This document shows, one piece after another, positions 3,236 through 53,125 of a DNA stretch of 64,000 bases (position 1 is its first letter; each line of letters opens with the position of its first letter). Source of the stretch: Macrosoma leucophasiata (Eukaryota; Arthropoda; Insecta; Lepidoptera; Hedylidae); assembly GCA_036365455.1 (NCBI GenBank), contig JAWQUS010000004.1, positions 4,471,501 through 4,535,500 of the forward strand, read 5' to 3'. The notes beneath the pieces were generated by a model that searched no databases, was not told where the DNA came from, and was given only the letters and a program-made list of their open reading frames with translations. The position numbers were made by a program, and so were the translations under genes.

Positions 3236-3307
3236 TAAAGGCAATTTATTTAGCTAGTTTAGCTTTAAATTATAAAAAAACACTCACGATGAAATATTTT
3301 GTTCCAG

Positions 3308-3461
3308 ATGACAGCTACATGGTGATAGAAGCGTCGACCAACGAGCGGCTGCGGCTTGTCTGTGGTCAAAAGCTGAGGAGTCAGGTGCAGACGGTCAGGT
3401 GGTTCATCGACGGTCGACCGCTGGACACCCAGAAGTCCAGGATTGTGCAGCAGAGGCAATG
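3308..3461 (+). CDS. FGFR: FGFR exon: first half of Ig1
   Basis: Acceptor TTCCAG, donor G/GTGAGT. It enters in phase 1 and leaves in phase 2. It encodes the first Ig cysteine (RLRLVCGQ) and the Ig tryptophan ([10 protein letters not shown]). The following exon restores the split TGG codon. Confidence 0.85.
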
Positions 3462-6400
3462 GTGAGTCTTGTTCTAAGGTTTACGCAAAGGTTCGGCAGG
3501 TGATTAGTTACGGTGTGCAAAAGTGACCAGTGATATCATCGGGACGTCAAGACGCCACCAGTGGTGGAGATGTCTTCCGGAAGTGCTGTCAATCAACCGA
3601 ACAATGGCGCCCAAACCATTTCAAAAGAGTCAGCAGCATTCTGCGATAAAACTATCACCACTTCGAATGCCAACCCTCCTTCGGGTCATTTCGGTTTTGA
3701 AATCCAATCTCGACGATTAGCCAACTGGGCAGGAGTTAGATAGTGCACAAGTGTGTGAGCAAATACAGTTGAACTCTCTATATTCTCGCTTTCATAACGT
3801 GGGCAATCCGACGCGACCGGAGAGAGGTCGGAGGATCGACGGCTTTACGTGCTCTCCGAGGCACGAGTACCAGGCTCCGGGCTACTACTTGGAATTTCCT
3901 CAGAGATAAAATCCAATAACAGCTTATTTCCCGACCCGGGGGCCGACCGCGTATCTCTAACACTTTCGTGATGCTTTTGATTACCGCCTTACTTTTGCCT
4001 GGAAGTGTGTTTGTCCGCAGATACTTTAGAGCAAAATGTTTAAACAGGCGGGGACCAAATCCGGGTTCTTGGGCTACAGCATCGCGATTGTGATCACTGG
4101 TCCAACGATGCAGTCATGACTTACAATAAGATAATAACAATATTATCGATATTATTCGATATTCGATTATCGATATAAAGTACGATCATCACTATCCTAT
4201 GACGCGCAGATTTATAATGATGAAACTTCACAATAAGATGCTTACGAACACTATAAATAACATTGTTCAAATCCAACTCAAACACGCTATACAAATATTT
4301 ATCAATTTCTATGCGAACGCTGAAAATAGATGCAATAATTCATATGCAACACGCTATGCGATTCTATTTGAGGCATGCAAAACAAACTGACCATCAAAAC
4401 AACGTATCAATCATCTCTTTATACCTATTTGAACCACGACTGCAAATGAGCTGTGGTACGATATTTTCGTATTAAAAACATTTTGTCGCGATGCAGGTTT
4501 TCAAATGTGAACCTGACCTGGGGTGCGACCACCTATCGACATTGCTATTGTCGTTGTCATTGCTGTCAAATTTTCATGTCGATTTTTGCTTTAACTAAAT
4601 AACAATAATCGAAATAATCTACCATTATCGCTTCTTTATCACCTACGAAAGCAAGAAAAACGATCAGACTATCACTACTGCTTTTAAATGAGCTACATAT
4701 CGAAAAACAACATGAAAATGACAAAGCCAGAAATTATATAGAACTTTGACCCACTTGAAAACAGTTATTTACCAGCACGGCAAATACCTCTTTTTGCTGA
4801 GATTTAATCACTGATTACTTACACACACATTTAATCACTTTTACAACTTGTAGTTTGTGTGTAAACTTAAGACATGTCATGCATGGCACGGCCGCAGTAA
4901 TACACATTTGGTAAAGTACACACAGTAAGGCAAAAGACATGGTCCATACAGACTGGAAGTATAAAATTATTCTGATTTCTGCAAAACTTTACGTTGAGTA
5001 TAAATAAAGTATTTTATATTTAAAGAACAGTTCTTTGATGTAAGTACCTAGGTTTGTTGTTGCTATTTTATTTAAGTACAATCGTTTTTTCGGGTAGATC
5101 GAAAATCTATGACAGTAGTAATGTTGACCGATACCTACATTGTCAACGTTTCAATAGTAAACACAGCGTTTGTAATTATTTAAAAATAATTTTATATTAA
5201 TTACATATACGAAAATAATATGTTTGGATTAAAACTAATTTTGAGGGATTAAAACTTGAGATAGAACGTTTTAAAGTACTTGATTGTTATTTTGAGTAAC
5301 GCAATTGATTGCGATTCTAATTAGGAACAAACATATTCAAGACTTTTTTAACGTAATTATTAACCTCAAGTTATACAGAAAAAAGATTTATTAACTAAGA
5401 TTCTATTTTCATAACATAGTTTTTCTTTAATTTACATTTCGTGTAAATGGTGGGTCACAATCTGTCATTGTCATTTACACTACATGAAAATTTGACAGCA
5501 ATGACAACGGCAATAGCAATGTCGATAGGCGGTCGCACCCCTGATATGATTAAGTCCTTTCCAGGGTGCCGTAGCCTACAAAGAACCCTTATAGTATCGT
5601 CATGTTCATCTGTCTGTACGCAGCTTAATTCATAGAATAATTAAAATTGGAAAGCTGTAATTTGGTATGAATACGATGTAGGTATGCTAAAGTGGTGTAA
5701 TCATTATTTTAAAAAATCTGAAAGTAGTCCTTTACCTATAAATTACAGGAAAACTTATGATATAAAACGTAATGTAGAAAAAAATCATCATCATCATTTT
5801 AGCCGAAAGATGTCCACTGCTGGACCAAAGCCTCCCCATAAAGGGGATATGCCATAATCGCCACGCTTGGCATGCGGATTTGCGATCGCAGTGGCAGTAG
5901 TTTTATCGCAGGATGCTGCTTATTGCCCATCTTGCACTAACTACCGCCCCATTGGAATAGTTTGACGCCATTGTTCCGTTGACTGCCTGCACTAGTGGAA
6001 GAATTATCTTCCAAAAGAAGAAAATTCTTCCGCTAGTGGGGTGAGGTCATCACGTCCCTACGCTAGAAAAGAAGAAAAAAAAAGTTGTACATAACCCTAT
6101 GAACGCGAGTCCGACTCGCACTTAGGTTTTTTATTTTTGTTACTCATCATTTTAACTTTATTTTCCAGGTTAAGAATAAAAGCGTTCCGACCAAAAGACG
6201 CTGGCGTGTATTCCTGTCACACCGACGATGACAAGACGGAGATGATTGTCGCTATTAAACACCGACCAGACGTTGAGAACATTGAGGGTATGTTGCATTC
6301 ACTTGTAAACTTTGTTATGGTGTCCGGTTGTTGTAGAATTTAATTTTCAATCTACCTAGCTGGACCTATGCAAATGTTGCCGAACGATCGATAGTATTTC

Positions 6401-9400
6401 TATCGAACTTTTCGTTCGAATGATGACTCACTATCAACCTCAACCGCTCAACCGTTTCAATACTACTTAGACTTGACTACTAGACAAACTATCACAAATA
6501 TCGATAGTATCGATACATATTAAACACGCCAAAAAAGTAATGCAATAAAATCTTGAAAAAAATTTAATTGGTATGCAATTTTTTCTGACGCATCCCATCG
6601 TGTGTGGTATAGTTGGATAGGTCGTTAAAATATTGTGCGTTCGAGAAGACTATTTTTCTATTAAACGATGCGAATGTGTTAAGTGTCAAGTGTCCCCCCC
6701 CCCTCCATCTGCAAGTTAAACGGTGGTTTGGGTGTGTGAAAAAAAATTGTTAAAAGACCCATATAACGAATTCAAAAGGAAAACTATCACGTCTAAGCAT
6801 ACTCAACAACTTTACGAGTAGTCGATCATGAAAAAAATCGGAACCGTACACACACACACCTAACACGCATTATGCCACTTTTTTTTCTTTGATAAGATTT
6901 GAAATAGTAGCCGTACTTTAAGAATGAAACCATTAAAGTTATAAATTTCTCCGTTTTCTGAATTTTAGGCCTGTATTCATCAGATCTTAGAACCGCAACA
7001 GGGCTTTAAGATTCTTGAAAATTGTGATCCTTATATCATTTCAAATGAAACAAAATGATAGATAAGATTAATAGGCATTAATAATTAATACGGACCTTAA
7101 ACTCTCGCTATTCAATGCTAAGCCAAGCTGTAAAATTAGCTTGTCTTTGAAACAGTCAGCTCATCTCTGCGATATAATATTTAATCGACGTCTTTATTAG
7201 CCGTCCAGATGTGTAAACATAGCGAAGTCGGCACAGGAATTCAGCAAATGTAAATGCGATATCGTTAACTGAAATATTTTCTTTTCAAATAACTCTTTCA
7301 TTAAACACTTAAACCTGATGTTTTCTCTCGAAATTACCAATAGTTACATGTATGTTTGTAAAGTTTTATCGACTAGGTACTTATTGAAATACAACATTAT
7401 TGAGATTTGAGGAAATTATAATTCTACTTCTTCCTGTCGTACAAGAAACTAACTAGAATCATAAAGTCGATGATTACTACAATTTATATTTCGATAGCAA
7501 ATTTTGGCTCATTTTCAATAAAATGTTTGAACTAGTATTTGATATTACGGATGTATTTATATTTGGTTGGGATATATTGATTCCGGGTCAGTTTTTCGGG
7601 GCCAATCAATGAGTTTTTACAAATTTCTTGGACGTTCAAAATATTGCTATAGTTTATCATGCTGTCTTTTTATTGACTTCTCATAATTATTTACTGGTGG
7701 TAGAGTTCCAGTGTAGGAGCTCGAGGAGCTGACCTCTGGTCTTTGTGTCTATAGGCTGCAGTCATCACTTTACATCAATATGAACTGCAGTCTTGTTTGC
7801 CACCATCATAACAAAAAAAAATCTTAACAATTTTTGTTTAATTTGTTGCAGAATATCAATCAGACGTTGATGTGAGATTGCCAGAAGTGCTACCACAACA
7901 AGCAGCATCACTTGTAATTAACGATACAACCGAAGAAAATAACAACGAAACAAGAAGAGTTTCAAAGAATCTAAAAGATAAAGAATACGATTCAAAAGAT
8001 GACGATCCCGATGATAAGGAGAAGGAGCATCCTTATTACGGCCATGTTGATGATACTCAGACTAAATTCGCTCCAAAATTCAAACATCCTGTGAAAATGT
8101 ACTCTATGGATATGAAACCAGCTGGAAGTTCGACCCGGTTGAGGTGCGCTGCTGAAGGTAAATAAACAACTTTATTAATTAAACAATTGATAGATTTTAA
8201 CTATGCTCTGTTTTAGAATTAATTATAAGGCTATATTAATTATTCACTTATCACCAATGGGAACTGTTTGTTATATTAGACTTTAACGTTCTTGAAATAA
8301 GAAAAGCTGTTGATAGTTGATGAAAGTTTTAATAAAGAAAAGAAAACAAGTATAAAATTCACATTGATTAAAAACTGGTTGAAGTATTTAATTAAGGCAA
8401 AATTTATTCATGTTTGCCACTGAAAAATTTAAAAAAGCACTACTGTTTGCCACTATAATGACATAAAATCTGTTGTAAATTCTTATCAAGTCAAGAAAAT
8501 TGAAAAGGTTAAACAAATATCTCATTTTTTCAGGTAACCCTACGCCCAACATAACATGGTTTAAAAACAATGGCACGCCCATTATGAGGTCGTACTTCCA
8601 GCCAACGTACGGCAAATGGTCTATGTCACTTGATGAACTAACTAAAGCAGACAGTGCAAATTACACGTGTTTAGTTTGTAATGAACTTGGCTGTATCAAT
8701 CATACATATGACATTCGTATACAAGGTAAGCCTAGTTATTTGCAAGTAGATTTATCGTAACATTTATTTATTTAGATACGCAACGCTACTAAGGGTGGGG
8801 TTCACCTACATCTTAAGTCGAGAATAAGTCTCAGCTCAAAGGATGGTTTTGTAAGGTCTTACAAAGTTTTGTAAAGTCTAATTTTTCTGAACAGCCCCAA
8901 TATGTATCCAGTAATGATAAAACAGAAGATAGAGCGTGACATCACAGTAAAAGTTACGTGTCCTAGCGTTTTACCACAAAATTGAGTCATCAAGATTTTT
9001 TTAAATTTTTATTAATTCATGCTTTTTGGGGAGAAAATTTGTGTTTTGTCACTGAGTTTATGTTAGTCGAAAATGTTCATGAAATACAAACCTATTATTA
9101 TTACAAAACCTGTTATATCAAATTATATTTACTACCCTCTACCTTTATTAAATTATATAAATCTTTTTATTCCTGTGGTTTGACATTTGAAAATATTTCC
9201 ATCAGAGAGATATCCTTCAAGGCCTTACATAAAAGAGGGTTACCCAGGGAACAAAACCGTCGTCGTCAACGATACCGTACAACTATCTTGTCCACCTGTA
9301 TCTGATCTTGAGCCATATTTGTACTGGCGGAAGTCGAACTACACAGTGAAAGATGAAGTACCACCCGGACCCGATCTAGAGGTGTGGACTGGTGGTGGTA

Positions 9401-12400
9401 GATCTTTGACTGAAATAACAATTCATTTAGAAATGGAATTGGTGAAAATTTTGCAAAGTTGCCAAGAATACTATAAATGTTAAAGTATAACCCCCATATT
9501 CATAAACGTACATTAGTTTTAGCTATAGAATGCTTTGTCTTTGTCAGTTGCATTGTCAAATGTGCAGGATAGAAAAAGACAAAGGAGAGATTAGCAACAC
9601 TTTAGCTAAAATAGGTTTATGAATAAGGGGGATAGTATCCAACAAAAAATCTTGCACATCGACCTTAGAAAGGAGATTTCGGGTTATTTCGGGTCTGTAG
9701 AGCGTTATTTCTTTCGCACCTTACCTTTTTGACGTTTATCGACCATTTTGATCAATTTTTGGCCACTACCAGACTATCACTGCTTACGAAGGCGGTGTGC
9801 GGCAGAGATAACGCTCTACGAATCGAAACTAGCCGATTGTCTCTTTCGTAGACTCGATATGCAAAATTGTTTACTGGTTACTTTACTGAATCTTTTATAA
9901 GAGTAATAAAGAATCGTGAAAATTAATTTTGCAAAATGTTCGAATGTTGTAGGTATAACCGGTATAACCCAAATCATGTCAAAAACAATGTTATAAGATA
10001 ATGTAATAGTGTTTAACTATAGGTGAAGGGTTTCGTCGATATTGGTGATGGATTTGGTGACTAATTTACGAAAATGGCTAATGGTATAAGATGTAATTAT
10101 TCTAACAAATATGTTCTTAGTGTAGACCATAGCCCCGATATTGAATGGGAAAGTGTTAACAATTACAAATTTGTTTATAGAACGTCTATACGCGAAACCA
10201 GTGTTAACACAAGGTGCTGTCAATCAAACGAAACTGGTCGGTGAAACTGCTAAATTTAGCTGTGAATTCCTATCAGATTTACATCCTTATGTATACTGGA
10301 TGTACTTCATGAAAGACGAATACCTATACAATGAGAGTTTCTCTAGTGATACAATAAAAGAACAAGTGATTGATCGCGACGATAATAAAATTATCACGGT
10401 GAGGGTTCATTAACTAACGCATTTCTTTTACTAACTGTGTTTATTAGCTGCTTTGTTGTTTGTGTTGACTAGCTGTTTTGTAAATTTTCGCATGTTTTTT
10501 GTTATACATATATTATTATCAATGGATGTTATTTTTCATTGAACTCTTTTGCATGTTGGGGCTGGTTAATAAATTATAATATGCTTACGCACATTATTAA
10601 AATGAAATATATAAAACATAAAACTGCCTCAGTAGTCTACTGGCAGTAGGCCACTACCGCTACGTTTGGGCCATGGGTTCGATTTCCAGGCACTACCATA
10701 GATAAAGATCTGAAATACTTTATCTCTGGTTCTATCGGGATTTCCGTTTTCTGGCAGTTTCCCAGTACCTCGAAGTTTGGTAATGTACCCGGAGATGTCA
10801 ACAGGCTCGCTACCTGTTGGGGCCAAAATATAATCGGCGCATCTTGAGTGTTTGCATGTACGCTTGAATGCATGCATTTACCTCTGCAGTACCCCTTCCT
10901 GGACTACGTTGTGCATTTACGTTAATCTAAAATGGATCCCTGTAAAACTTTAACCATTTAAGCATGTAGAATACGACTCGAATGATCTTGTCTATGAAAT
11001 ATGACTCAAACTAATTCAAAATCATATTAATTCAAAGTGCGGTGTGTCTATTAATATCAATTCACTTTTGGACTAAGCTAATCCACTTACTAAATATATT
11101 ACAGAGTGAAAACCCTGAGGACAAACCAGAACAACTAACCATATTCAATGTTACCCAAGAAGATGAAGGGTGGTATGTATGTGTAGCCGTAAACACCCTT
11201 GGAAATACTACAGCGAAAGGATACCTGACAGTTTTAGAATGTACGTTTCTTTAATATCTTTTTTATTTTATGTTAAGTTAGCTGACCCGGTGAACTTTGT
11301 AGCGCCATCGGAGATTTTTCAACATTTGCTATTATTTTTTAAAATTCACATAAACTATGAATTTCTTTCGCAGCACTTCCAGTAACAGAGCCGCTGGACC
11401 ACGGCAAATACACGTTTGTAAATATTATGACAGCAGTCCTAGGCGCATTGTTTTTCGCGGCGGCAATAATAGTGATCATGATATTCAAGAAACTGAAACG
11501 GGAGAAGATAAAGAAGCAGCTGGCTATAGAAACGGCGAGGGCTGTGATTGTGACGCACTGGACCAAGAAGGTGACGGTGGAGAAACCTCAAATGAACGGT
11601 TCACTGAATCCTGGTGCTGATGGGTTGGTGAGTGAACATTTTGACTAAAGAAAAAAAAACAGAAAAAACATTGCAAAAATGTTTTGTCCGTAAAAGATTT
11701 CAAAGACAGAAAAGTAGTGGTAATATGCAAATATAACCATTTACACTAAAAAGGTTAAAAAAAATTTGAAGAAAAGGAAAATATATGACTGTAGAATAGA
11801 AATTAAAAAGTTCAGTTAAGATTTTGCAACTAATCATGATCGTGTCCTGTCGACGATGAAATTTTGTTTTCATAGATCTTTGTTATACCAATTATCTGTC
11901 AGCTCTCACTTAAAAAAGTACTTTTTTATGTAATGAGGGTGGGTGGCAAACAAGCATGCAATTCATATGGATTTTTGTAATTTTTATAAATTTCTGTAAT
12001 TATTAATTCAACATTGTACACAAGTTTAATCCCCTGTCATAAAATAATCTCTTAAATTAATTTCAGTTGATGCCAGTAGTCAAGATAGAGAAACAGAAGC
12101 TGTCTCAAGTGCAAAGCAACACGTGCGACTCCATGATGATGTCGGAATACGAGCTACCAGTGGATATAGACTGGGAGATCCCGAGAGAATCCCTGTGCTT
12201 AGGGAAGATCCTGGGCGAAGGGGAGTTTGGCAAGGTGGTGAAGGCCGAATGTGTTGGTATTCTGAAGCCTGGAGTGCAGTCTGTGGTTGCTGTCAAAATG
12301 TTGAAGGGTCAGTATTAGGAATTATATGTTTCAACGATAAGATTGATATTAAAGTCTTTTACTTTTTGTTTTCGACTTTGGGACGTGATGATTCCAGGCA

Positions 12401-15400
12401 AGCGGAGGCAAATTCGTTTGCTAGTGTAGTAAGTCAAACGAACAAAAACCGTAAACGAATTCGTGAAGGTCCAAAATATATTCTATTACATTTCGCTTAG
12501 CGACATTTGTGCATATGACAAGATTTGACAGATAACAGTAGCACTACCATGAGTTCGTATCGAAACGCCACTATAGATTACTTCAGTCGATAAAGTGTTA
12601 TCTATCGTCGAATACTTTTCGATTCAAACCGTACCATGACTTAATTTTACTCGCTAGCGTTAGCTCGATTCTATTCTGTGATATTAAGTCGTTGTGTTGG
12701 TAACAAATACGATTGTACTAACTTCACATCTCACGATTCTGCCTCTTTCTAATTATACTGAAAGGACAGAGTAAGATAATAGCAAGCCTAATATTTAAAA
12801 GTTTTGAATAATCCTACAAATTAAAGATGCCATTATGAGTGGTTAAACCTTTGAACAGACATGACGTTTAAAATTATATCGGTTATAATCTGTCATGTCT
12901 GTCTTGTACATAGTCAAGAGTCAAAGTGTCAACAACATATTTGGGTCTTGCTTGCAGTGTTTTTGTAATAATTGTATCTATCGCTGTCTTGTTTTCTTTA
13001 AACTTTATAATGAGAACTAGTGCCACGCAATTCCAACTATTGGTGGATTATATGGAAAGGTATGTAATGTATTTAATTTCAATCATTATCATAAAGAGAA
13101 GCTAGCGTAACTATACGAAAGACGCTGTTTTTTTTTTTGTTAAACCTTTATTTCCAAAGTTTATTTTTATTTTTTTAGAAATTGAGACCTTAGCAAACCG
13201 GCGGAAGGTCCTCAAGGAAGGGCCCTAAATAATCAGCGCTGGGCGGAGCTAACAAGTATATCAAAAACCAATGGAAGACTTGGTGGAGCTACGAGCAAGG
13301 ATAGCAGAAGCAGTAGAATACGTGAATAATGGAAGATTCGCCCGTCTGATAACCCGATCTTTTCTAAAAAGATGTCGGGCGTGTATTGCTGCTGAAGGAA
13401 GGCATTTTGAACATTTGCTGTAATTTAAATAAAATCAAATTATTTTACTTAAAAGTTTTTTATTTCATTGAACTATCCTAAGCTTTGTTTTTTGTTTTGA
13501 GCAAAACCAGTTCCGTTACTCTGTCTCGTTCACACTTCCAAAATTACTCTCTCCGTCTCTTTCATACTAGAAATGTAAAGTTACCGTATCGAGGGAAAGC
13601 TTAGGTACATTAAATAATTTTAAAGTAAGTTATAAAAAATGGCTGAAAACCGGTTCCGTTCACAAAAAAAATAATTGACAATAATCTAAGAAATAATGTA
13701 GCAAGTGTTAAATCATTTTGGAATCCTCATTAAATGCGCCAACTTTTAAAGCTACTTGTCCAACCAGTGTAGTACAATTTTTTCCAGTAGACTCAGTTGA
13801 AATTGATCAAAAAATTCAATTTCACTTTTGATATGGGAATAATGTGTCATTTTCTTTTAAAATTAGAGCAGTTGGGTTAAAATATTAGACTACAAGGTAC
13901 AGAAGCATTAGTCAGGGTTACAAAACAATAAAAAAAATATTAAAAAGTGGAAATTTGTAAAAACGGGAAGTAAAAATGCATTACAAGGTGTACATTTTCT
14001 GTATTTTTTTCCAAATGGTAATAATTTTTAAAATACATGACATAGATTTTTTTTTGTATTTTTCTGATAACTGTTATAACCTGACCTATCACCCAGTACC
14101 GGCTTGACGTCGCATTCTGGGACACGCTGTATGTGCTCTTCTTCTCTAGGAGGGGTAAAAAATTTAAAGTGGCTGCAATCAATGCAACCTATTACCCCTG
14201 GAACACCATATTTACTGTAGAAACTAAAATTTAATAAAAAACACTTGTGAACTTAATATGCAAGTATAATATTAAATGATAATTTATTTCTTATAATAAA
14301 ATTGTAACCCAATAAATTACTACCTTTGCTTAATGCTGTCCCTTTCTTGTCTTGTTGTTGGGAACTTTATAAACCTTTTCAAAATATTGGGGTGGTTCAG
14401 TGCCATTGTCACTTCATGAATATAATTACTGATGGCTTCCTGCGGAAAATGGTGTGCCTTGCCAGTAATACTTCCGTGTGCATAAAATACTAATGCACAT
14501 AAAACCTGTAAAGTTGTGGACTGCTTATTTTTGAGTGATTGATATAAGACAACTTGAATTAGTTAAGATTTAAATAAATTTTACCTTAGATTCTAATGAG
14601 ACTCTTTGTGTAGATTTCAAATCCGTGTAATAACGTAATAAGTCGCACAAATCCTCAAAAGCATCCTTATTAAGCCGATATTCTTTGATGAAATTATTTT
14701 CACTTAAATGTTCAAGTGGGTTTCCAAGAACACTCCTCATATTGGCTCGAAACTGTCGTTGTTCCCGTCGTTCGTCTTCATATGCCGCTGCATCTAACAT
14801 ATTCCATGCTAAATATGTTCTTCCCGACATTATTTTCACAAGTAATGCAAGTAATACTCGAAATTAAATTATTTAAAACTCAGTAAAACTGTTTTCATGC
14901 ACAATTTTGCTAGTGAATGAATTTACTACTATCGACACGGTATTTCTCGATAGCATCTGTCAAATTTAAGACTCATGGTACCGAATTTCTATGGCATTGA
15001 TCTAAATGACAATCGCTAGCGATTTGATTTCGATACGTTTGATAACTCGTATGAACTCATACTACGGATTTTAGTTCTACGAGTGATCACCAGAGGCGCT
15101 GTAAAATTTTTCATAGATATTTTTTACGTAGTCGCTAGCGAGTAAAACCTTTGTAAACTCATGGTAGTGCTACTGGAATTGGTGTCGAATACTGTCGAAG
15201 CGACACCAATCTGTGGCGACAAGTGTACACGATCATTTTGATAATATTGTTTTGTTATTTAGATTTCTGTGGTAGTTAGGTACACTTAAAGCCTCAGGTC
15301 TATAACTCAAATACTAATAAAAACTAATTTCGCTTTCAGAGGGCCACACGGACGCGGAAATGATGGCATTAGTGTCCGAAATGGAGATGATGAAGATGAT

Positions 15401-18400
15401 AGGCAAGCACGTGAACATAATCAACCTGTTGGGGTGCTGCACACAAGATGGACCGCTATACGTGATCGTGGAGTACGCACCCAACGGGAACTTGAGAGAG
15501 TTCTTGAGGAACCATCGGCCAGGGAACAGGTACTTACGACGTCATATTAGAAAATGTTTTGGCGTAGAGATGTGACGTTCTTTATATAATATGAATATAT
15601 AATATAATATGTACGGCCCTGTAATTTCCGGCACAGAGGCATAACACCTTAGGCCTCAGGAGTGGTAACGCATTTGCATTTTGACCTTGGTCTTTGTGTG
15701 GGTGTCTATAGGCTGCAGTCATCACATAACATCAATGTGAACTGCATGCTTGTTTGCCACTTCAATTACATAAAAAAAATATATATATATAAAATAGTGG
15801 TTGATGATAGTGATATAAATAGAAGATAGTGTTGGGAACTCAATTCCCGGGTCGTGGGGGTGAATAAAGGTGTATATTATCTCTGGTGCAATGGGGATTT
15901 CTGCATTTTCTGGAAGTGCTACCCTCGAAGGTTGGTTATGTGTCCGGAAATGTCAACAGGCTCGCCACTTGTTACATTGGACAAAATGAAACCGGCGAAA
16001 CGTGGGTCGGTGTTCTGTTCACAAATGCTTGAATGCATCTATTCGTGTCTGCCTTTTGGAAAGTAGGCGTGAACGTAGGTTTTTTTATTTAGATTTGTAG
16101 GTAATAATTTTTTATTATCATTTCAGATACGAGCCGTCACCAGAAGATATGAAAGAGAAGAAAACTTTAACGCAGAAGGATCTGGTTTCCTTCTCCTATC
16201 AAGTTGCTAGAGGAATGGAATACTTGGCATCTAGAAGAGTAAGTAAAACATACACCTACAACATATGAATTTTTGCTTGGAAGCCTTTATAGATCAACGT
16301 GTGTGAACGTCTTTTAGTTCCGAGAGTATAACAACAAGTGTCGCATAAATTAATAGTCTCCTTTATTCGAACAATGGCGGTCAAACATTGCCAATACACG
16401 GCAGTAAATACAATAACGCGGTATGGGCAGCGTTCCGCTATAAAATTGCCGTCACTGCGATTGTCAGTCCGCAGGCTAAGCATGTCTTACTGGTGGTAGA
16501 GCTCCAGTGATGAAGCTCGCGGGCGTAGGCACCGCATTACCTAATATACTTGCCGCTAAATGGTAGTGTTCAGCACTATCGTGTTCCGATCAGGTGGTCA
16601 TGTACGGCCCAGTAATTTCCGACACAGAGGCATAACACCTTAGGTCCGTGGTAACGCATCTGCATTTTGACTTTTGGTCTTTGTGTAGGTGTATATAGGC
16701 TGCAGTCATCACTTAACATCAATGTGAACTGCAAGCTTGTTTGGCACTTTCATTACATAAAAAATAAAAATGTTATAAGTGGAATATGCCATCATTGCCG
16801 GTGCCAAGCGGGTTGACGGTGATTTTTATCGCGGGACGCCGTTGCCTAACCCCCGTTGCTGCATCTACTACCGCTGTACAGTATCCAACAGTAAATATTG
16901 CACACCGACCTCAGGGGAGAGACTTCGTATAATTTCGGCTCTGTAGAGCGTTATCTCTTTCGCACACAACCTACCTGACGTTTGTCGACCATTTTGAGCA
17001 AGTTTTGACCAATACCGGACTATCAGTGCTTACGTAAGCAGTGTGCTGCAGAGACGACGTCGAAACTAGGCGATTGTCTCTTTCGTAAGCCCTATGTGCA
17101 ATATTTATTGTTAGGTACTGTAGGTACGTACTATTCGAACGGTTTGACCGCCATTATTCTGTCGACTGACCGCTCCAGTGCATAGAGTAATACGGGCCAC
17201 CGGTCGCGGCGGACCGGAGAGGAGTAGTCATATGCAGGCTTTCTCCTCTGTCACTTTGACAGCAAGTGGTCCTACGCCTGTCGCCCAGATGTTTAAATGT
17301 GTGCGTCAAATTGTTTATGTATTTTGTTAAAGAGTTTCGTAGAAATATACGATTTTTGTAGCCTGTGTGTGTATCACACGTAGTTCCCCCCGCAAAACTT
17401 TTTTACTGGTGGTAGAGTTCCAGTGACGGAGCTCGCGGGCGTAGGCACCACCGCATTACCTAATATACTTGCCGCTAAATGGTAGTGTTCAGCACTATCG
17501 TGTTCCGGTCAGGTGGTAATGTACGGCCCTGTAATTTCAGGCACAGAGGCATATCACCTAATGCCTCAGGAGTGGCAGCGCATCTGCATTTTGACCTCTG
17601 GTCATTGTGTGGGTGTCTATAGGCTGCAGTCATCACTTAACATCAATGTGAACTGCATGCTTGTTTGCCACTTTTATTACATAAAAAAAAAAAATGACGA
17701 GACTGTTTTGCATCGGTAATTGGCTATGGCTACTCCCCTCCGGTCCGCCGTGGCGGCCGGTGGCCCGCGTTGCTCTATGCTCCAGTGTAATAATGCACCT
17801 CCACTCGTGAGCGGTGGGCTCGTCACGCCATAAGCCTGCTCAAAAAGGCTAATTTCGAATCAGAATCAGAAACTCATTTATTCATTTAGGGTGACAGGCA
17901 CCTCATATGACACGTCAAAAACAAACAAAATAAATTAAAGTGAATAACAATTGATATACATGTCAAACAAGATAAAAAAATATATGTAATAACATCATTG
18001 TGTAAAGTCAAGAATATCACTAAGATAAAACTAAATATAATATGCTAATGTAAAAAGTATATCAGTAGAATCAGTAGAATGTCTCATTTCCCTTTACAAA
18101 CTGATAACAAAGAGTAAAAAGAAAAGAAAAAGAGTCATTCTTTGTCATTCACCAGCAGAGTTCCAAAGACCAATATGATCAGAGAAAAATGACAGAGAAT
18201 GAATGTTATCATTCCAGTGTATCCATCGTGACCTGGCCGCGAGGAACGTGCTGGTGTCGGATGACTGCGTGCTCAAAATCGCGGACTTCGGCCTCGCGAA
18301 GGACGTGCACAGCAACGACTACTACCGCAAGAAGACGGAGGGTCGCCTCCCGGTGCGGTGGATGGCGCCCGAGTCCCTGTACCATAAGGTCTTCACTACG

Positions 18401-20835
18401 CAGACTGATGTGTGAGTATTCTTTCGTATTTTTAGGGTCAACGGCAAAAACGAGAACCTTTATAGGATTACTAGTGCATCTGTCTGTGACACAGAAGATC
18501 TTCTCCAAAAGTTCTGGGCCGATTGAATTGAGATGGGCGTCGCCAGTGGGTGGCAGGAGAGGGCAGCTGCCCTTCTTTACAGATAAAAAAATGGCGTATA
18601 ATACAGCAAAAACTGATATGTGCCATAAGTACAGGTAGGTACCAAAATGCTTCCCCTAGAGCCAGCCTGGCCCTCCCACTGTGGCTGGCGATGCCCTTGA
18701 ATATGTATACCGAATATATTCATATTTGGCTCACTAATTATAGTGAGCTAATTAATTAACTAATTATTAGGTATCTATAATGGTGGCCGAGTTACAATAT
18801 AGGAATTTCAATCAATTTTTTGCCGCTTTTTTAAAACTTGATATATCGTAGGTTCTTACAATCGATGTAACTTTTTTATCCATATTTTTTAAAACGGTAC
18901 ATTTCAAATAAATGTTGTGTTGTGATTAGTAGTAAATGTTCTTAATTCTAATTTGTTTTGTTGTGTCTGAGTATTATGGATGCGCTTTTGAATGAAAGCC
19001 TTCATTCCCTGCCTTTCATTTCTATTCTGGGCCATTTTCATTAAAAAACTGAACAATCTATGTTACAATTGTTTTTATATTATTTCGCATTAACACATGC
19101 TTGTGAAATATATTTTTATTTTAAAGAAAAATGGAAAGAAAAATTTGATTTCAGGCGAGACTCGAACAGTAGTAACTCAGTAGCGCCATCTATTACCAAC
19201 CATGCTAGTTAGGCAACTGGCGCTACTGCTACCATAAAGCAAGGAAATAAATGTGAAGGAAAGATTTGACAAATCGGGCAGGACTTCAGTAGCTCAATTG
19301 GAAGAGCGGTTGGACTAGATTCCCAGTAGGCCGCGAGTTCGAGTCTCGCCTGAAGCCAAATTTTTCTTTCCATTTTTCTTTAAACGTAACTTCACGCCTG
19401 TAATCCCCGAAGGGGTAGGCAGAGGTAAATGCATGCATTCAAGCATACATGCAAACACCCACGATTCGCCGGTTACGTTTTTGGCCCATGTAACAGGTGG
19501 CGAGGCTGTTGACATCTCCGGGCACATTACCAAACTTTGAGGTACTGGGAAATTTCCAGAAAATGGAAAAATCCCAATAGAACCAGAGATAAAGGCTTTT
19601 TCACCATTATCTCTGATAACCCCCTACCCGGGAATCGAACCCAGGACCTCAGCGTAGTAGTAGTGGCCTGCTACCACTAGGCTACCGAGGCAGTTAAAAT
19701 AAAAAAAATCTATGTTACAGCACCATAAATATTCTTTGTAATTGCAAATGTAAGTAGCCAACAGATTGATGATGAGAGCGATCCAACTAATTCCATATTT
19801 TTGCCATAAAAGAGATGAGGACTTTAAATCTTAGAAAAAACTAGAAGTGGGTTCGTTTCTATTCCTAAAAATTCTTGGCTGATGTTCTTTCCAGTTTGTA
19901 CCTGAAAAATAATGCCTATACTTGCTCTCAGATGGTCCTTCGGTGTGCTACTATGGGAGATAATGACACTCGGCGGCACCCCCTACCCCACTGTCCCCGG
20001 GCAATACATGTACCAACACCTCAGTGCTGGTCATCGAATGGAGAAACCGCCTTGCTGTAGTCTTGAGATGTAAGTATATGAGTCATTTTTATGGATCTTT
20101 TGGGCTTTGTGATTTCAAGTTCGGAGTGGGCTTCCCCGCTATTACGCCATTATTCACTTCCACCCCTGAGTGTCTTACAGAAATTAAGATAACAGCCTTT
20201 TATCTAAATTTTTGCAAATGCCATACTTCTAGCGGCCTACTCTAACCGCCAATGAAGGCAAGCCAGAGGTGAGACCTCATGATCTCTCCGGCCGAACCTC
20301 TGTGTGGCGCACGAGGCGGAGCCCCGTTCTCTCGGAGGGACTCGAGATAATGGTAGAGTCTTTAGTCACCAACAGCTCGCCACAAGCTGCTCTGCCCCTG
20401 TAATAATATGTCCCATGCTTTTTTTGTCATGAAGTGGCAATTATGGCAATCAAGCATACAGTTCACACTGATGGAAAGTGAATAAACAATGTAGCGCATA
20501 AACGTGAACATTAAATCAGAGACCTCAATTTATTGCATAATATCATGCCATCTCCGCAGGTGATAGTGTGAGAAACTTTCCCAATACAAAACTTAAAGAC
20601 GAGGTCCTCATACACGTTTTTCATTTCCAGCTACATGCTAATGCGAGAGTGCTGGTCCTTCTCCCCCGGCGACCGACCGTCTTTCACGGAGCTGGTAGAA
20701 GACCTGGACAAGATCCTCACGGTCACAGCCAACCAGGAGTACCTGGACCTGGGTCTACCGCAACTAGACACACCACCTTCGAGCTACGACGGCTCGGGTG
20801 ATGAGAGCGATAGCGAATTTCCTTTCATAAAGTGA
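3308..20835 (+). CDS. FGFR: Fibroblast growth factor receptor (breathless/heartless class), 5' end outside window
   Basis: Thirteen exons (one of two alternatives for Ig3a) join without a frame break: 3308-3461, 6169-6287, 7852-8157, 8534-8725, 9206-9441 or 10181-10398, 11105-11240, 11374-11627, 12067-12307, 15340-15529, 16127-16238, 18218-18411, 19932-20069, 20631-20835. With the second alternative they encode 818 residues. In order: Ig1, acid box, Ig2, Ig3, one membrane helix, and a tyrosine kinase with GEGEFGKV, the VAVK lysine, [11 protein letters not shown] and paired activation-loop tyrosines. FGFRs are plasma-membrane receptors that signal to Ras-MAPK; in insects they guide tracheal and mesodermal cells. 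The first base of the first visible codon comes from an upstream exon, so the signal peptide is not in the window. I cannot separate btl from htl orthology by eye. Confidence 0.95.
3515..3700. repeat. Remnant of the LINE-tail repeat seen at 5786-6065
   Basis: Segments such as CAATCAACCGAACAATGGCG and GCGATAAAACTATCACCACT resemble the repeat at 24300-24480 and 37200-37340. Diverged and non-coding, in an FGFR intron. Further downstream, about 3830-3870, a short GACGGCTTTACGTGCTCTCC stretch resembles the body of the 5S-SINE. Confidence 0.45.
4520..5541. mobile_element. MQ inverted-repeat element, carrying an insertion
   Basis: The left end GGGGTGCGACCACCTATCG and right end CGATAGGCGGTCGCACCCC are near-perfect inverted repeats. 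The arms extend about 60 bp, up to GCTGTCAAATTTTCATG. A 240-bp copy of the same family is at 35948-36190, so the extra length here is inserted material (4720-5481). Confidence 0.75.
4720..5481. mobile_element. Unknown 762-bp insertion inside MQ
   Basis: Flanked by a 10-bp direct repeat ACATGAAAAT (4710-4719 and 5482-5491), which is single in an intact MQ arm. AT-rich, no ORF worth calling, no clear terminal inverted repeats. Type unknown. Confidence 0.5.
5786..6065 (-). repeat. SINE-like repeat sharing a LINE 3' end
   Basis: It starts with (CAT)n, then TTTTAGCCGAAAGATGTCC, the reverse complement of the QQWTSFG-stop-(GAT)n end of the LINE tails at 25540 and 61920. The rest (TGCCATAATCGCCACGCTTG) is repeated at 24330-24500, 34141-34330 and 37195-37345. 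A SINE borrowing a LINE tail is the likely explanation. Confidence 0.55.
6169..6287 (+). CDS. FGFR: FGFR exon: second half of Ig1
   Basis: Acceptor TTTTCCAG, donor GGTATGT. It encodes [18 protein letters not shown], the DAGxYxC signature that closes an Ig fold. It leaves in phase 1, as the next exon requires. Confidence 0.9.
6288..7689. other. FGFR intron, no feature recognised
   Basis: AT-rich intron with short palindromic AT stretches (TATCGATAGTATCGATA near 6498) and a C run at 6693-6702. No coding exon or known repeat is recognisable by eye. Confidence 0.5.
7690..7821 (+). mobile_element. S1 repeat, internally deleted
   Basis: It has the S1 5' end (TTACTGGTGGTAGAGTTCC) joined directly to the S1 3' part (GGCTGCAGTCATCACTTTAC) and the poly-A. 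The A-rich end is only 30 bp from the splice acceptor of the acid-box exon. Confidence 0.75.
7852..8157 (+). CDS. FGFR: FGFR exon: inter-Ig linker with acid box, start of Ig2
   Basis: Acceptor TTGTTGCAG, donor G/GTAAAT; phase 1 in, phase 1 out. It encodes a hydrophilic linker with N-glycosylation sequons, then the acid box [12 protein letters not shown] basic stretch at the start of Ig2 follows ([12 protein letters not shown]), then the first Ig2 cysteine (TRLRCAAEG). An acid box before Ig2 and a basic heparin-binding patch are FGFR hallmarks, and they separate this gene from other Ig-type receptor kinases. Confidence 0.92.
8158..8533. other. FGFR intron, nothing recognised
   Basis: AT-rich; ends with TTTTTTCAG before the Ig2 exon. 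Confidence 0.5.
8534..8725 (+). CDS. FGFR: FGFR exon: Ig2
   Basis: It encodes [14 protein letters not shown] (Ig tryptophan), [19 protein letters not shown] (closing cysteine) and the link into Ig3. Donor AAG/GTAAG. It ends with a single G, so any following exon must supply two bases; both candidate Ig3 exons do. Confidence 0.93.
8726..9205. other. FGFR intron with a short repeat
   Basis: About 8845-8930 (TAATTTTTCTGAACAGCCCC) resembles 28290-28355 in the spacer of the fold-back pair, so it is a dispersed repeat fragment. Otherwise plain intron. Confidence 0.4.
9206..9441 (+). CDS. FGFR: FGFR alternative exon A: first half of Ig3
   Basis: Acceptor TTTCCATCAG. It begins [19 protein letters not shown], close to the canonical FGFR Ig3 start, followed by VQLSCPP and LYWRKSNYT. 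The likely donor is TTG/GTGAAA after 9441, phase 0, giving 78 full codons. An earlier phase-0 GT after GATCTAGAG is possible but weaker. If the donor is ignored the frame stops at 9481-9483. It ends in phase 0 while exon B enters in phase 1, so A and B cannot be joined in frame. Confidence 0.8.
9491..9632. mobile_element. Short MITE between the alternative Ig3 exons
   Basis: Termini CCCCCATATTCATAAACGT and TAGGTTTATGAATAAGGGGG are inverted repeats about 20 bp long. 142 bp, no ORF. Confidence 0.7.
9640..9876. mobile_element. MITE family MB, copy 2
   Basis: Same layout as 416-654: CTTGCACATCGACCTTAG ... GTAGAGCGTTATTTC ... AGATAACGCTCTACG ... CTCGATATGCAAAATTG. Confidence 0.7.
10181..10398 (+). 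CDS. FGFR: FGFR alternative exon B: first half of Ig3
   Basis: Acceptor TTGTTTATAG, donor ACG/GTGAGG, a strong site. It begins [17 protein letters not shown], then [19 protein letters not shown]. So it has the same ER..P start, single cysteine and tryptophan as exon A, in a clearly different sequence. Phase 1 in, phase 0 out; 72 full codons. It joins in frame to the exon at 11105. Confidence 0.88.
10399..10621. other. FGFR intron, nothing recognised
   Basis: AT-rich intron start, directly before an SC SINE. Confidence 0.4.
10622..10915 (+). mobile_element. SC tRNA-derived SINE, near full length
   Basis: It begins CTGCCTCAGTAGTCTACTGG (A-box like) and GGGTTCGATTTCC (B-box like). It ends near GCATGCATTTACCTCTGCAG, like the SC copy at 19385-19695 in the opposite orientation. 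The pol III boxes are read from the sequence; activity is unknown. Confidence 0.75.
11105..11240 (+). CDS. FGFR: FGFR exon: second half of Ig3
   Basis: Acceptor ATTACAG, donor T/GTACGT; phase 0 in, phase 1 out. It encodes [19 protein letters not shown] and ends LTVLE, exactly the shape of vertebrate IIIb/IIIc exons. Only one such exon is visible, so the variation in this gene is in the other half of Ig3. Confidence 0.92.
11374..11627 (+). CDS. FGFR: FGFR exon: transmembrane and juxtamembrane
   Basis: Acceptor CTTTCGCAG, donor TTG/GTGAGT. A hydrophobic helix (about 11414-11486, [14 protein letters not shown]) is followed by a basic stop-transfer stretch [11 protein letters not shown] and the juxtamembrane segment. 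Phase 1 in, phase 0 out. Confidence 0.93.
11628..12066. other. FGFR intron
   Basis: AT-rich. A fragment GTGGCAAACAAGCATGCAAT at about 11943-11963 is the end of an S1 in minus orientation. Ends TTTCAG. Confidence 0.45.
12067..12307 (+). CDS. FGFR: FGFR exon: kinase N-lobe, glycine loop and catalytic lysine
   Basis: It encodes [19 protein letters not shown], with the nucleotide loop GEGEFGKV. The ATP-binding lysine of VAVKML is codon 12295-12297. Phase 0 in, phase 1 out (donor GGTCAGT). Confidence 0.95.
13010..13422 (+). pseudogene. Harbinger Myb/SANT-like DNA-binding protein, broken
   Basis: The first exon gives [17 protein letters not shown] and a donor at 13060. After the acceptor TTTTTTTAG at about 13178 the text reads [17 protein letters not shown] then RWAELTSIS, the usual start of such proteins. 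A TGA lies between the two parts in the joined frame. The rest drifts into DSRSSRIRE and a stop. Assigned by motif resemblance and by its partner transposase. Confidence 0.65.
14130..14839 (-). pseudogene. Harbinger (HARBI1-like) transposase, truncated
   Basis: Three exons read on the minus strand: 14839-14585 (ending RVSLESK), 14505-14324 ([20 protein letters not shown] ... FIKFPTTRQ) and 14214 to about 14130 ([17 protein letters not shown]). GCID-[GC]-[ST]H carries the first Asp of the DDE triad. The following conserved region (NRKGYHS and the other two acidic residues) is missing. The sequence changes character at an ACAGCGTGTCCCAGAATG boundary near 14127, which looks like the end of another repeat. 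Confidence 0.8.
15340..15529 (+). CDS. FGFR: FGFR exon: kinase helix C to hinge
   Basis: Acceptor CGCTTTCAG, donor CAG/GTACTT. It encodes [20 protein letters not shown] (helix C glutamate), [19 protein letters not shown] (hinge) and [11 protein letters not shown]. Phase 1 in, phase 2 out. Confidence 0.95.
15609..15779 (+). mobile_element. S1 repeat, 5'-truncated
   Basis: It starts at ATGTACGGCCCTGTAATTTC and runs to GCCACTTCAATTACATAAAA. Confidence 0.8.
15826..16078 (+). mobile_element. SC SINE, 5'-truncated
   Basis: It contains ATTATCTCTGGTGCAATGGG, GTCCGGAAATGTCAACAGGC and GCGTGAACGTA, in the same order as the SC copy at 10622-10915. Confidence 0.65.
16127..16238 (+). CDS. FGFR: FGFR exon: kinase insert and helix E
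   Basis: Acceptor TTTCAG, donor AGA/GTAAGT. It encodes a short kinase insert ([14 protein letters not shown]) and [18 protein letters not shown], leading directly into the catalytic-loop exon. Phase 2 in, phase 0 out. Confidence 0.94.
16487..16770 (+). mobile_element. S1 repeat, full length
   Basis: TTACTGGTGGTAGAGCTCC at the start, ATTACATAAAAAATAAAAA at the end. Confidence 0.85.
16785..16880. repeat. Fragment of the 5786-type repeat
   Basis: ATGCCATCATTGCCGGTGCC ... TTTTTATCGCGGGACGCCG resembles 5840-5930 and 34141-34230. Confidence 0.5.
16885..17113. mobile_element. MITE family MB, copy 3
   Basis: CCAACAGTAAATATTGCACA at the left and GTGCAATATTTATTGTTAGG at the right, inverted. The internal GTAGAGCGTTATCTCT matches copies 1 and 2. 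Confidence 0.75.
17181..17779. mobile_element. H8 hAT-type MITE, interrupted by S1
   Basis: The termini CATAGAGTAATACGGGCC and CGCGTTGCTCTATG are inverted, and the arms continue into the ACCGGAG / CTCCGGT region. Flanking 8-bp direct repeats CTCCAGTG (17173-17180 and 17780-17787) are exact. The S1 at 17399-17694 splits the internal CGCAAAAAATGAC site. The 8-bp duplication is the hAT signature. Confidence 0.85.
17399..17694 (+). mobile_element. S1 repeat, full length, nested in H8
   Basis: From TTTTACTGGTGGTAGAGTTC to a run of 12 A. H8 sequence continues on both sides. Confidence 0.9.
17862..18187 (-). repeat. 3' end of a non-LTR retrotransposon
   Basis: The reverse complement ends AATGAGTTTCTGATTCTGAT after a long 3' UTR. 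The same 320 bp occur in the opposite orientation at 38560-38875. The repeat reaches within about 30 bp of the FGFR acceptor at 18217. Confidence 0.65.
18218..18411 (+). CDS. FGFR: FGFR exon: catalytic and activation loops
   Basis: Acceptor CATTCCAG, donor GT/GTGAGT. It encodes [12 protein letters not shown] (catalytic Asp codon 18230-18232), [10 protein letters not shown] (DFG Asp 18284-18286), paired tyrosines 18320-18325 and [11 protein letters not shown]. All residues needed for an active tyrosine kinase are present. Phase 0 in, phase 2 out. Locally GC-rich compared with the intron. Confidence 0.96.
18540..18712. repeat. Dispersed repeat E, copy 1
   Basis: GAGGGCAGCTGCCCTTCTTT ... ACTGATATGTGCC matches 37570-37650. 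Non-coding in both places. Confidence 0.5.
18713..19078. other. FGFR intron, nothing recognised
   Basis: AT-rich, no exon-like frame. Confidence 0.4.
19079..19384 (+). mobile_element. T unit, copy 1
   Basis: It starts with TTTCGCATTAACACATGC. It contains AAAGAAAAATGGAAAGAAAA and, at the far end, its inverted repeat TTTTCTTTCCATTTTTCTTT. Just inside the second arm is a complete tRNA-like sequence; the first arm carries only its T-arm part. Other copies: 44451, 53126 and 60340. Confidence 0.7.
19283..19358 (+). other. tRNA-like sequence inside T
   Basis: Acceptor-type stem (A)CTTCAG/CTGAAG(C), TA at 8-9, D arm GCTC-AATTGGAA-GAGC, a perfect T arm GCGAG-TTCGAGT-CTCGC, then a T run (pol III terminator like). 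The anticodon arm is irregular: either a 9-nt loop, or a 7-nt loop with a mismatched stem. Probably a tRNA-derived head, not a working tRNA gene. Confidence 0.6.
19385..19695 (-). mobile_element. SC tRNA-derived SINE, full length
   Basis: Read on the minus strand it begins CTGCCTCGGTAGCCTAGTGG (A box) and GGGTTCGATTCCCGGG (B box). It ends after the body at GGGGATTACAGGCGTGAAG. Best copy of the family in the window. Confidence 0.8.
19932..20069 (+). CDS. FGFR: FGFR exon: kinase C-lobe, helices F-G
   Basis: Acceptor GCTCTCAG, donor GAGAT/GTAAGT. It encodes [20 protein letters not shown] and [16 protein letters not shown], the usual kinase subdomain IX-X. Phase 2 in, phase 2 out. Confidence 0.95.
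20070..20630. other. Last FGFR intron, mixed repeat fragments
   Basis: 20421-20480 holds a diverged S1 end (CAATCAAGCATACAGTTCAC, minus orientation). 20225-20400 is more GC-rich and repeat-like, but I cannot name it. Confidence 0.4.
20631..20835 (+). CDS. FGFR: FGFR last exon: kinase end and C-tail
   Basis: Acceptor TTTCCAG. It encodes [18 protein letters not shown] (subdomain XI arginine), the end of the kinase, and a short acidic tail ([10 protein letters not shown]) ending at TGA 20833-20835. A YLDL motif lies in the tail. Confidence 0.95.
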
Positions 20836-31286: not shown

Positions 31287-31805
31287 TCACATATTAACAC
31301 AGCGTAATTTCTTATCAGGTATTCTCGAAGCGTATTGGAAGCTAGGAACGGCTGCCTTCGCTTCAGGCTTAGATTCATCACGTTCTACAGCACTGCCCAT
31401 CATACTTCGCAAACAAATCTTCATGTCAGCAGCGAATATCTTCACGAGCCTTTCCAAAGAGAACAAATGATCGTCTAAAGCTTCAGGGATTTCTTCCCTC
31501 ATAAAATCTGCAAGCCTCAAAAGGTATTCGACGTTGGAACCGGATGAACCGCGGCAGTCTAGAATCTGTTTAGCTATGTCAGGCAAAGGTGCTGAACCCA
31601 ACCAATGTTTGTTTTCTGGGACAGCTATGTAGAGAAGTGCATCCTTTTTATCGCGGCTGCTGGAAGGTAGGAAAATGGATGGACGGGGATGAAAATTAAC
31701 TACGTGCGTTCGGTAGCCTCCTAATTGGCATTCCCTAGTGGAAAGGTATGGTAGCGCGGCTTTGTCTTCGGCTGCTATCAGGAAAGCTTTGCCCCATGTG
31801 ATTCC
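31287..31805 (-). CDS. CHAC2: CHAC2 exon 3 (catalytic Glu and C-terminus)
   Basis: Acceptor TTTGTTTCAG. It begins [11 protein letters not shown], directly continuing the Gly-x-x-Trp-Gly of the family, and ends at TGA 31289-31287. 172 codons. Confidence 0.95.
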   Translation of the reverse strand, partial: GITWGKAFLIAAEDKAALPYLSTRECQLGGYRTHVVNFHPRPSIFLPSSSRDKKDALLYIAVPENKHWLGSAPLPDIAKQILDCRGSSGSNVEYLLRLADFMREEIPEALDDHLFSLERLVKIFAADMKICLRSMMGSAVERDESKPEAKAAVPSFQYASRIPDKKLRCVNM

Positions 31806-52063: not shown

Positions 52064-53125
52064 CCTTTAGGCGCGCTACTTTCTCCGAAAAAATCACCTT
52101 GCTAACACTGGATTTTCATAAATAAAACATTTAAAGCTTAAAAGAACGCAACGCTACAATTATTACCCCGCACTTAAAAATTCACTAATTACTCTACTTG
52201 TGTCTCATTGTGGGTATTTGGCATTTGGAATATACGTATTCATTAAGAAAATTCGAAATCTAACATCGTGCCCTACAACACAAACCAATAACCAACCGTA
52301 CAATTCCAAACTGAATTGACGTTTGCGTTTCGGATTTCCGCTGATTTCTTCATGACATGAATGAAAGGCGGTCGTTTAAATCGATACGTTTCGTTCTACA
52401 CATCAAACAACAATAAGCTACGAGCACTAAGTACTCTTTATTAAAACTACTCATTGTTATCCCCAAATATAATAACGCAGAAACAAAATTATTAGTTTAT
52501 TTTAAGAATACATATAACAAGTTTGATTAATTTATAGTTTTAATGATATAATTCTTATATTTCTGCTTAGTGTTTTGCACAAAACGAAACGTATTGGAGA
52601 CGAGCGCCAATGACCTTTTTTTACAGAACCGGTAGGCGAGTGTGATTGGTTGAGCATGAGCTGATGCAATTTTTGAATAATTTTACATTATGCTGCAGCA
52701 CCTTTCGAGCTTTTTTTGAGGTTCCATAGTATTACGTACCTACTTTATTTACGCTAATAGAAAGCAATCTTTGTTTAATATTTGTTTTTTGGGATAAAGA
52801 GATGAGATTTTGATATCACAATAAAATATTTACACATTAATACGTTAAGTACTGACTTACCTGCCTCATTAAAGTAAAACACTTGTAAAAATGTTGAAAA
52901 TGTGTAGATTTAAGTATTTACTTACATATAATCAGAATAATCAAAAGATACGACCACATAATATAACCCATAAATTGCATAAAATTACATTGAAATTTTC
53001 GCAAGTTCAAGCATACGTGATTATAGGTGCATACCTATACTGAGAACATAATACTTACCTACCTACTAATATACTTACCTCTGTAAGGACACACTAATCC
53101 CCTTGAATAGGTACGTAGGTAGGGT
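52064..53125. other. CHAC2 5' flank and probable promoter region
   Basis: AT-rich and without repeats for about 1 kb. I see no confident TATA box or initiator. Confidence 0.4.

Follow-up and report, generated by a model that had tools for sequence, protein, structure and literature searches.

A lepidopteran FGFR gene with two alternative exons, likely of ancient origin, for the first half of its third immunoglobulin domain

In a stretch of 64,000 nucleotides (nt) of the genome of Macrosoma leucophasiata (Lepidoptera, Hedylidae; contig JAWQUS010000004.1, positions 4,471,501 to 4,535,500; hereafter the window, with positions counted from its first base), we analyzed a gene for a fibroblast growth factor (FGF) receptor, FGFR. 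With high confidence, we conclude that this gene carries two tandem exons, A and B, for the first half of its third immunoglobulin domain (Ig3), that these exons are likely older than the insect orders sharing them, that one of them is predicted to be used per transcript, and that the two resulting receptors likely bind different FGFs. The gene lies on the + strand and spans 3308 (Ig1) to 20835 (stop codon), as determined by tblastn with FGFRs of Papilio and other Lepidoptera and by exon tables. An Ig-like ectodomain, an acidic stretch, a transmembrane segment and an FGFR-type kinase are all present in this one gene, which identifies it as an FGFR.

The exon carrying the remainder of Ig2 (8534–8725) ends in phase 1 and can be joined to A or to B. 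Exon A starts at 9206, preceded by ...TTCCATCAG, and exon B at 10181, preceded by ...TTTATAG; with the leftover G of the Ig2 exon, both starts yield E-R, just as the original prediction had stated. Exon A (9206–9381, DLEPYLYW...GPDLE) has 176 nt and exon B (10181–10398, SDLHPYVYW...NKIIT) 218 nt. Both enter in phase 1 and leave in phase 0, and each contains one Ig cysteine and one Ig tryptophan, so that these predicted features hold as well. The swapped block thus comprises 59 residues with A or 73 with B, and is followed by the common second half of Ig3 in exon C (11105–11240), which opens with SEN in phase 0. A and B share 41% identity over 51 residues (E-value approx. 1e-8, tblastn over the whole window), a likeness far beyond chance. 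No third exon for the first half of Ig3 was found in the window using tblastn, and the second half of Ig3 of the lepidopteran queries matched exon C only, which is therefore present as a single copy.

The end of exon A had originally been placed at 9441, and this had to be corrected. According to an approximate donor matrix, the site TTG/GTGAAA at 9441 scores 2.9 bits, which 19% of the GTs across the window attain, whereas GAG/GTGTGG at 9381/9382, in the same phase, scores 8.7 bits, reached by only 0.8%. The other twelve donors of the gene range from 5.0 to 11.0 bits, with 10.0 bits for the donor of B. Further, the A forms of relatives enter exon C via ...IE/SED or ...IE/SEN, equivalent to DLE/SEN in the window. 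Since the donor score is higher and relatives end at the same E/S junction, the end was moved to 9381, and exon A very likely covers 9206–9381. With this exon of 176 nt, joining A, B and C shifts the frame so that codon nine of B reads as a stop, in agreement with the claim that A joined to B breaks the frame; skipping both exons gives E and an immediate stop. Only single inclusion of A or B keeps the frame. A joined to C (in the longer version of A) and B joined to C both passed the Pfam cut-offs for Ig domains. In Macrosoma, both A and B transcripts would be made, as judged from the isoform pairs of relatives described below, and each transcript would take A or B but never both, as products are otherwise out of frame. 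For this exclusivity, the frame shift together with nonsense-mediated decay of the wrong products would be sufficient.

When intron pairs were tested for competing base pairing of the docking-selector type known from Dscam, the introns between A and B (9382–10180) and between B and C (10399–11104) were found to pair with a duplex energy of −253.1, below all 40 of 40 shuffles (mean −236.1, standard deviation 8.4); for the other two intron pairs, 17 and 38 of 40 shuffles were as low. This pairing may come from repeats or from a splicing structure. The A–B intron also contains an inverted repeat resembling a miniature inverted-repeat transposable element (MITE) at 9488–9634, just past 9441, with arms of 29 nt which are 83% complementary.

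Protein records of relatives support two alternative first halves of Ig3 with one common second half, one per transcript, as paired isoforms differ there alone. Names among the best 120 of 121 matches of the first protein search include X1/X2 pairs, and 17 isoform comparisons were made, in which the differing block was set by mismatch density and is somewhat wider than the exon. Twelve of these comparisons match an A form with a B form from the same species or source, with 99.5–100% identity outside the block: 100% in Papilio polytes, Pectinophora, Xylocopa violacea, X. sonorina, Apis mellifera, Melanaphis, Rhopalosiphum, Trachymyrmex and Brenthis, 99.7% in Tenebrio, 99.5% for P0035/P0071 and 99.8% for P0049/P0044. 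The pair sought in other Lepidoptera is consequently found in Papilio polytes, Pectinophora and Brenthis. Comparisons other than pairs concern Papilio machaon (the record runs from A into B), Sabethes versus Malaya, which are different species, and two records from Anopheles, of which one is fused. P0071 (A) shares 99.3% identity with P0072, the named FGFR of Bombyx mori, and P0035 (B) is 99.5% identical to P0072 outside the block, so this pair looks like one from Bombyx. The source contigs of P0035/P0071 and P0049/P0044 have at most 4,620 bases (4,620 for the longest of P0035 and 3,117 for P0071), which is short for a receptor of approximately 856 amino acids and suggests that these sequences are assembled spliced transcripts. 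The named Bombyx record P0072 is itself of type A, while Spodoptera frugiperda P0038 and P0039 are of type B; a third record of the latter species, P0024, has A sequence ahead of B. Isoforms of Apis and Tenebrio and proteins of Tribolium show the same A and B types.

To which extent A and B occur in other insects was assessed using profiles of approximately 41 columns, trained on 12 lepidopteran A and 13 lepidopteran B segments. From the proteins, 301 segments were extracted, of which 238 were kept and, with the two window exons, gave 240; segments with at most 8 bits on both profiles and the vertebrate adhesion proteins P0097–P0120 were removed before counting, and P0004, P0073, P0074 and P0096 were left without any segment. 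Outside Lepidoptera, 162 of 169 segments were sorted to one type (87 A, 75 B) and seven to neither at a cut of 9 bits difference, in counts which take in “lgn” and “jgi” proteins and near-identical copies. The window exons score 105 bits (A on the A profile) and 107 bits (B on the B profile). Both types occur in Lepidoptera, Hymenoptera, Coleoptera, Hemiptera, Diptera (mosquitoes), Odonata and Ephemeroptera. Phasmatodea show A clearly and B weakly (−9.3), Orthoptera and Blattodea only A and Trichoptera only B, as far as the profiles tell (a segment at residue 433 of Anabrus P0123 is off-pattern and was not scored). Two beetle segments, P0137_482 (Onthophagus) and P0238_382 (Brassicogethes), score nearly equal on both profiles. 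Where A and B stand in one record, A precedes B in Hetaerina P0211, Ephemera P0131 and Diaphorina P0081, which is also the order in the window; in Timema P0075, B comes first.

In a tree of 28 rows, hand-picked as clear cases, A and B fall on opposite sides of one branch with a support of 99/99. Constraining A and B of one order to a single clade was rejected in this tree for Hymenoptera (p = 0.019), Hemiptera (p = 0.004) and Diptera (p = 0.025), but not for Coleoptera (p = 0.067) and Lepidoptera (p = 0.09). Because A and B part on one branch, the duplication of the exon is likely older than the divergence of Odonata, Ephemeroptera and Neoptera, as far as can be judged from sequence comparison. 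The pair is, by the same comparison, no invention of the Macrosoma gene. Accordingly, two parts of the original prediction are not supported, namely that this gene reached its switch on its own and that B is a diverged newcomer, given that both types occur in at least seven orders. On its description of A as the canonical exon, the evidence is divided: A matches the FGFR1 chain 1cvs_C better than B does (44.9 versus 30.0 bits), but the single sea spider segment is nearer to the B profile (−16.5). The sea spider score does not tell which type is older.

As the swapped block comprises the linker between the second and third Ig domains (D2 and D3) and the first half of D3, the swap likely gives the receptor a different FGF preference. 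Using phmmer, ERYPSRP of A was aligned with ERSPHRP of FGFR1, so that the proline of A meets the FGFR linker proline, where B has a tyrosine. We take the aligned place in FGFR2 to be Pro253, which is changed to arginine in the Apert structure 1iil, to go by the title of that structure. A change of this linker residue in human FGFR2 causes Apert syndrome and alters ligand binding. The proline is present in 90 of 92 unique A segments, compared to 5 of 78 unique B segments (the sea spider and four ant-type sequences); the two A segments lacking it come from flies and belong to the “homolog 1” type. For both Papilio forms, the models had FGFR D2–D3 chains of FGF complexes as best matches.

For Tribolium, a review passage (PMC11885702) describes a single FGFR gene whose distinct isoforms receive FGF8 (mesoderm) or Branchless (tubule tip cells). 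In flies, two named “homolog 1” proteins lean to A with +8.6 bits, which is below the 9-bit cut, and +9.5 bits, and other fly proteins, some of them hypothetical, lean to A with up to +17.3 bits; “homolog 1” is equated with Heartless in a passage of PMC3863949. If the two forms divide the ligands as the Tribolium isoforms are reported to do, A, given the lean of the fly proteins, would be Heartless-like and read ligands of the FGF8/Pyramus/Thisbe type, and B would read those of the Branchless type. A bolder version, which we put forward only tentatively and regard as rather doubtful, would be that a single duplication before the winged insects arose let splicing produce two kinds of FGFR, a Heartless type from A and a Breathless type from B, that the linker proline served as the switch, and that flies later fixed the two forms as two intronless genes. 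The missing proline in the fly “homolog 1” segments is evidence against a Heartless/Breathless switch made by this residue alone. A dipteran Breathless was not recognized among the matches listed from three protein searches (in one, the best 120 of 248). P0234 was considered as a possible Breathless and rejected, being closest to the fly “homolog 1” kinases.

On the other hand, the swap might be real and tune the binding of heparan sulphate, receptor dimerization or the binding of juvenile hormone rather than the choice of FGF. We consider this unlikely, though worth keeping in mind, since the swapped block belongs to the FGF-binding unit, as is generally known and as the fold matches of the models indicate. 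Different FGFs are also said to be received by the Tribolium isoforms (PMC11885702). In favor of the hormone, binding of juvenile hormone III to Helicoverpa FGFR1 is reported in PMC11908783, with ectodomain residues 101–301 as the mapped site, and the block begins at residue 289 in the Helicoverpa A-form P0065, whereby the numbering of the construct may differ.

Several points weigh against the conclusion of two ancient, alternatively used exons for two ligands. Many of the isoform records are automatic annotations, and 13 protein records hold both an A and a B segment, two of them from beetles with duplicated Ig2–Ig3 modules. Public records with A and B in one chain include P0005, P0006, P0007, P0015, P0021, P0081, P0131, P0164, P0166 and P0211. 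Several such records look like gene-model joins through intron sequence, and perhaps they are annotation errors caused by the either-or pair itself. In Zophobas P0001 and Tribolium madens P0012, A and B stand in separate Ig2–Ig3 modules, as if the whole module had been duplicated. Concerning the ligands, the assignment draws on one review passage and on two weakly scoring fly “homolog 1” proteins without the linker proline. The Papilio models are poor, with a mean predicted local distance difference test (pLDDT) score of 56.0 and 56.5 and a high root-mean-square deviation to the FGFR chains; the part from exon A mostly reaches 79–86 (62–73 after the tryptophan) and the part from exon B 71–86 (39–59 after the tryptophan). 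Concerning the age, the 9-bit cut between A, B and neither was chosen after the scores had been seen, the rows of the 28-row tree were selected by hand, the alignable columns number 41, and a larger tree of 52 rows, also hand-picked, supports the A/B split with only 57/73; there, two fly rows fall outside the drawn A group of 26 rows.

The small number of columns, the weak 52-row tree and the one-clade trees which stand for Lepidoptera and Coleoptera would all fit separate exon duplications, order by order. Nevertheless, we give little credence to this, as the split is one branch in the 28-row tree and recurs in 88% of 200 bootstrap trees of the 52 rows, and as profiles made from Lepidoptera alone sort nearly all segments of other orders. 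We also judge it very improbable that transcripts with A continue past its donor into the intron and encode a truncated, secreted trap for FGF, while B gives the membrane receptor: the frame past 9381 is indeed open beyond 9441, with a stop 13 codons later, and vertebrate soluble FGFRs arise by splicing, but the donor at 9381 is good and the A-form receptors of relatives continue into exon C, the transmembrane segment and the kinase. Finally, that one exon is a dead duplicate in this lineage, leaving a single receptor, is hardly credible, since both exons are free of stops and frameshifts, have good donors and score high on the lepidopteran profiles, even if exon A is short (59 residues versus 68 in Papilio) and the MITE-like repeat lies approximately 105 bases beyond its donor.

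The remaining exons of the FGFR gene were placed using the exon listing and tblastn, the queries covering Ig1 through the last codon and thus all exons after the signal peptide. Ig1 is encoded by 3308–3461 (first part; acceptor TTCCAG at 3302–3307; the exon listing starts at 3289) and 6169–6287 (second part), followed by the acidic linker and the start of Ig2 at 7852–8157. Downstream of exon C, 11374–11627 encodes the transmembrane and juxtamembrane region and the kinase follows in five parts at 12067–12307, 15340–15529, 16127–16238, 18218–18411 (HRDLAARN and activation loop) and 19932–20069, before the last coding exon with the stop codon at 20631–20835. With P0018 as query, the last exon is 100% identical and the other kinase exons 84–99%, the lowest values being found where the match overruns exon edges. 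An exon for the signal peptide of FGFR was not found in the window by tblastn. The lepidopteran records P0008, P0010, P0014, P0025 and P0048 contain a second Ig2 module; the window has one Ig2, and a second copy was absent from it in tblastn. Further open reading frames (ORFs) were noted around the gene. Two on the + strand at 2044–2991, upstream of the first Ig1 exon, presumably represent a non-LTR (long terminal repeat) reverse transcriptase, and those at 14028–14863 on the − strand, within a kinase intron, resemble a Harbinger-type transposase. ORFs at 31287–31826 and 51782–52066 (− strand) resemble a ChaC-type gamma-glutamylcyclotransferase and perhaps form one neighboring gene.

An exon pair of this kind is already known. 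An insect-specific, mutually exclusive FGFR exon IIIa is reported in the legend of Fig. 7 of PMC5703972, which cites Sharma et al. (2015) and has honey bee and flour beetle among the species of the figure; section 12 of the same article names the IgIII region a hotspot of alternative splicing, and the Ig3 exon pair of chordates is given there as a separate duplication. The window pair, type A and type B of exon IIIa, agrees with the insect pair in gene and Ig3 half, with two tandem exons of equal phases and one common downstream half, and each of its exons clusters with one of the two types, A or B, from other insects. The parts of PMC5703972 consulted deal with neither Lepidoptera, mosquitoes, Hemiptera, Odonata and Ephemeroptera nor a comparison at residue level, whereas the window member is lepidopteran. 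No report of the A/B pair in Lepidoptera was recognized among the best-ranked open-licence PMC texts. The present analysis adds a lepidopteran case with its exons delimited exactly, the occurrence of the pair in mosquitoes, aphids, dragonflies and mayflies as well, and the difference at the linker residue. Vertebrate FGFR1-3 with exons IIIb/IIIc also have either-or exons within Ig3 which set ligand choice, as the window pair probably does; however, these swap the second half of Ig3, while the window gene swaps the first half and has a single second half. The likeness drawn in the original prediction is thus valid for function but not for homology. Heartless and Breathless of Drosophila are likewise two receptors for two ligand groups, but are two genes instead of two exons, reported as intronless in the legend of Fig. 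7 (PMC5703972). Among arthropod genes, Dscam1 likewise encodes half of an Ig domain by alternative exons in tandem, but has dozens of them compared to two here, and docking and selector RNA as a feature.

Studies of FGFR in Lepidoptera have regarded it as a single molecule, and one sequence each is given for Bombyx and Spodoptera frugiperda in PMC3320908. Since the named Bombyx record is of type A and the two Spodoptera records are of type B, results from the two species may not describe the same receptor. The gene also presents a natural experiment, as one block which covers the Apert linker residue is swapped within one gene and has been kept in most insect orders examined. How insects with a single FGFR separate mesoderm from tracheal signals thereby becomes testable beyond beetles.

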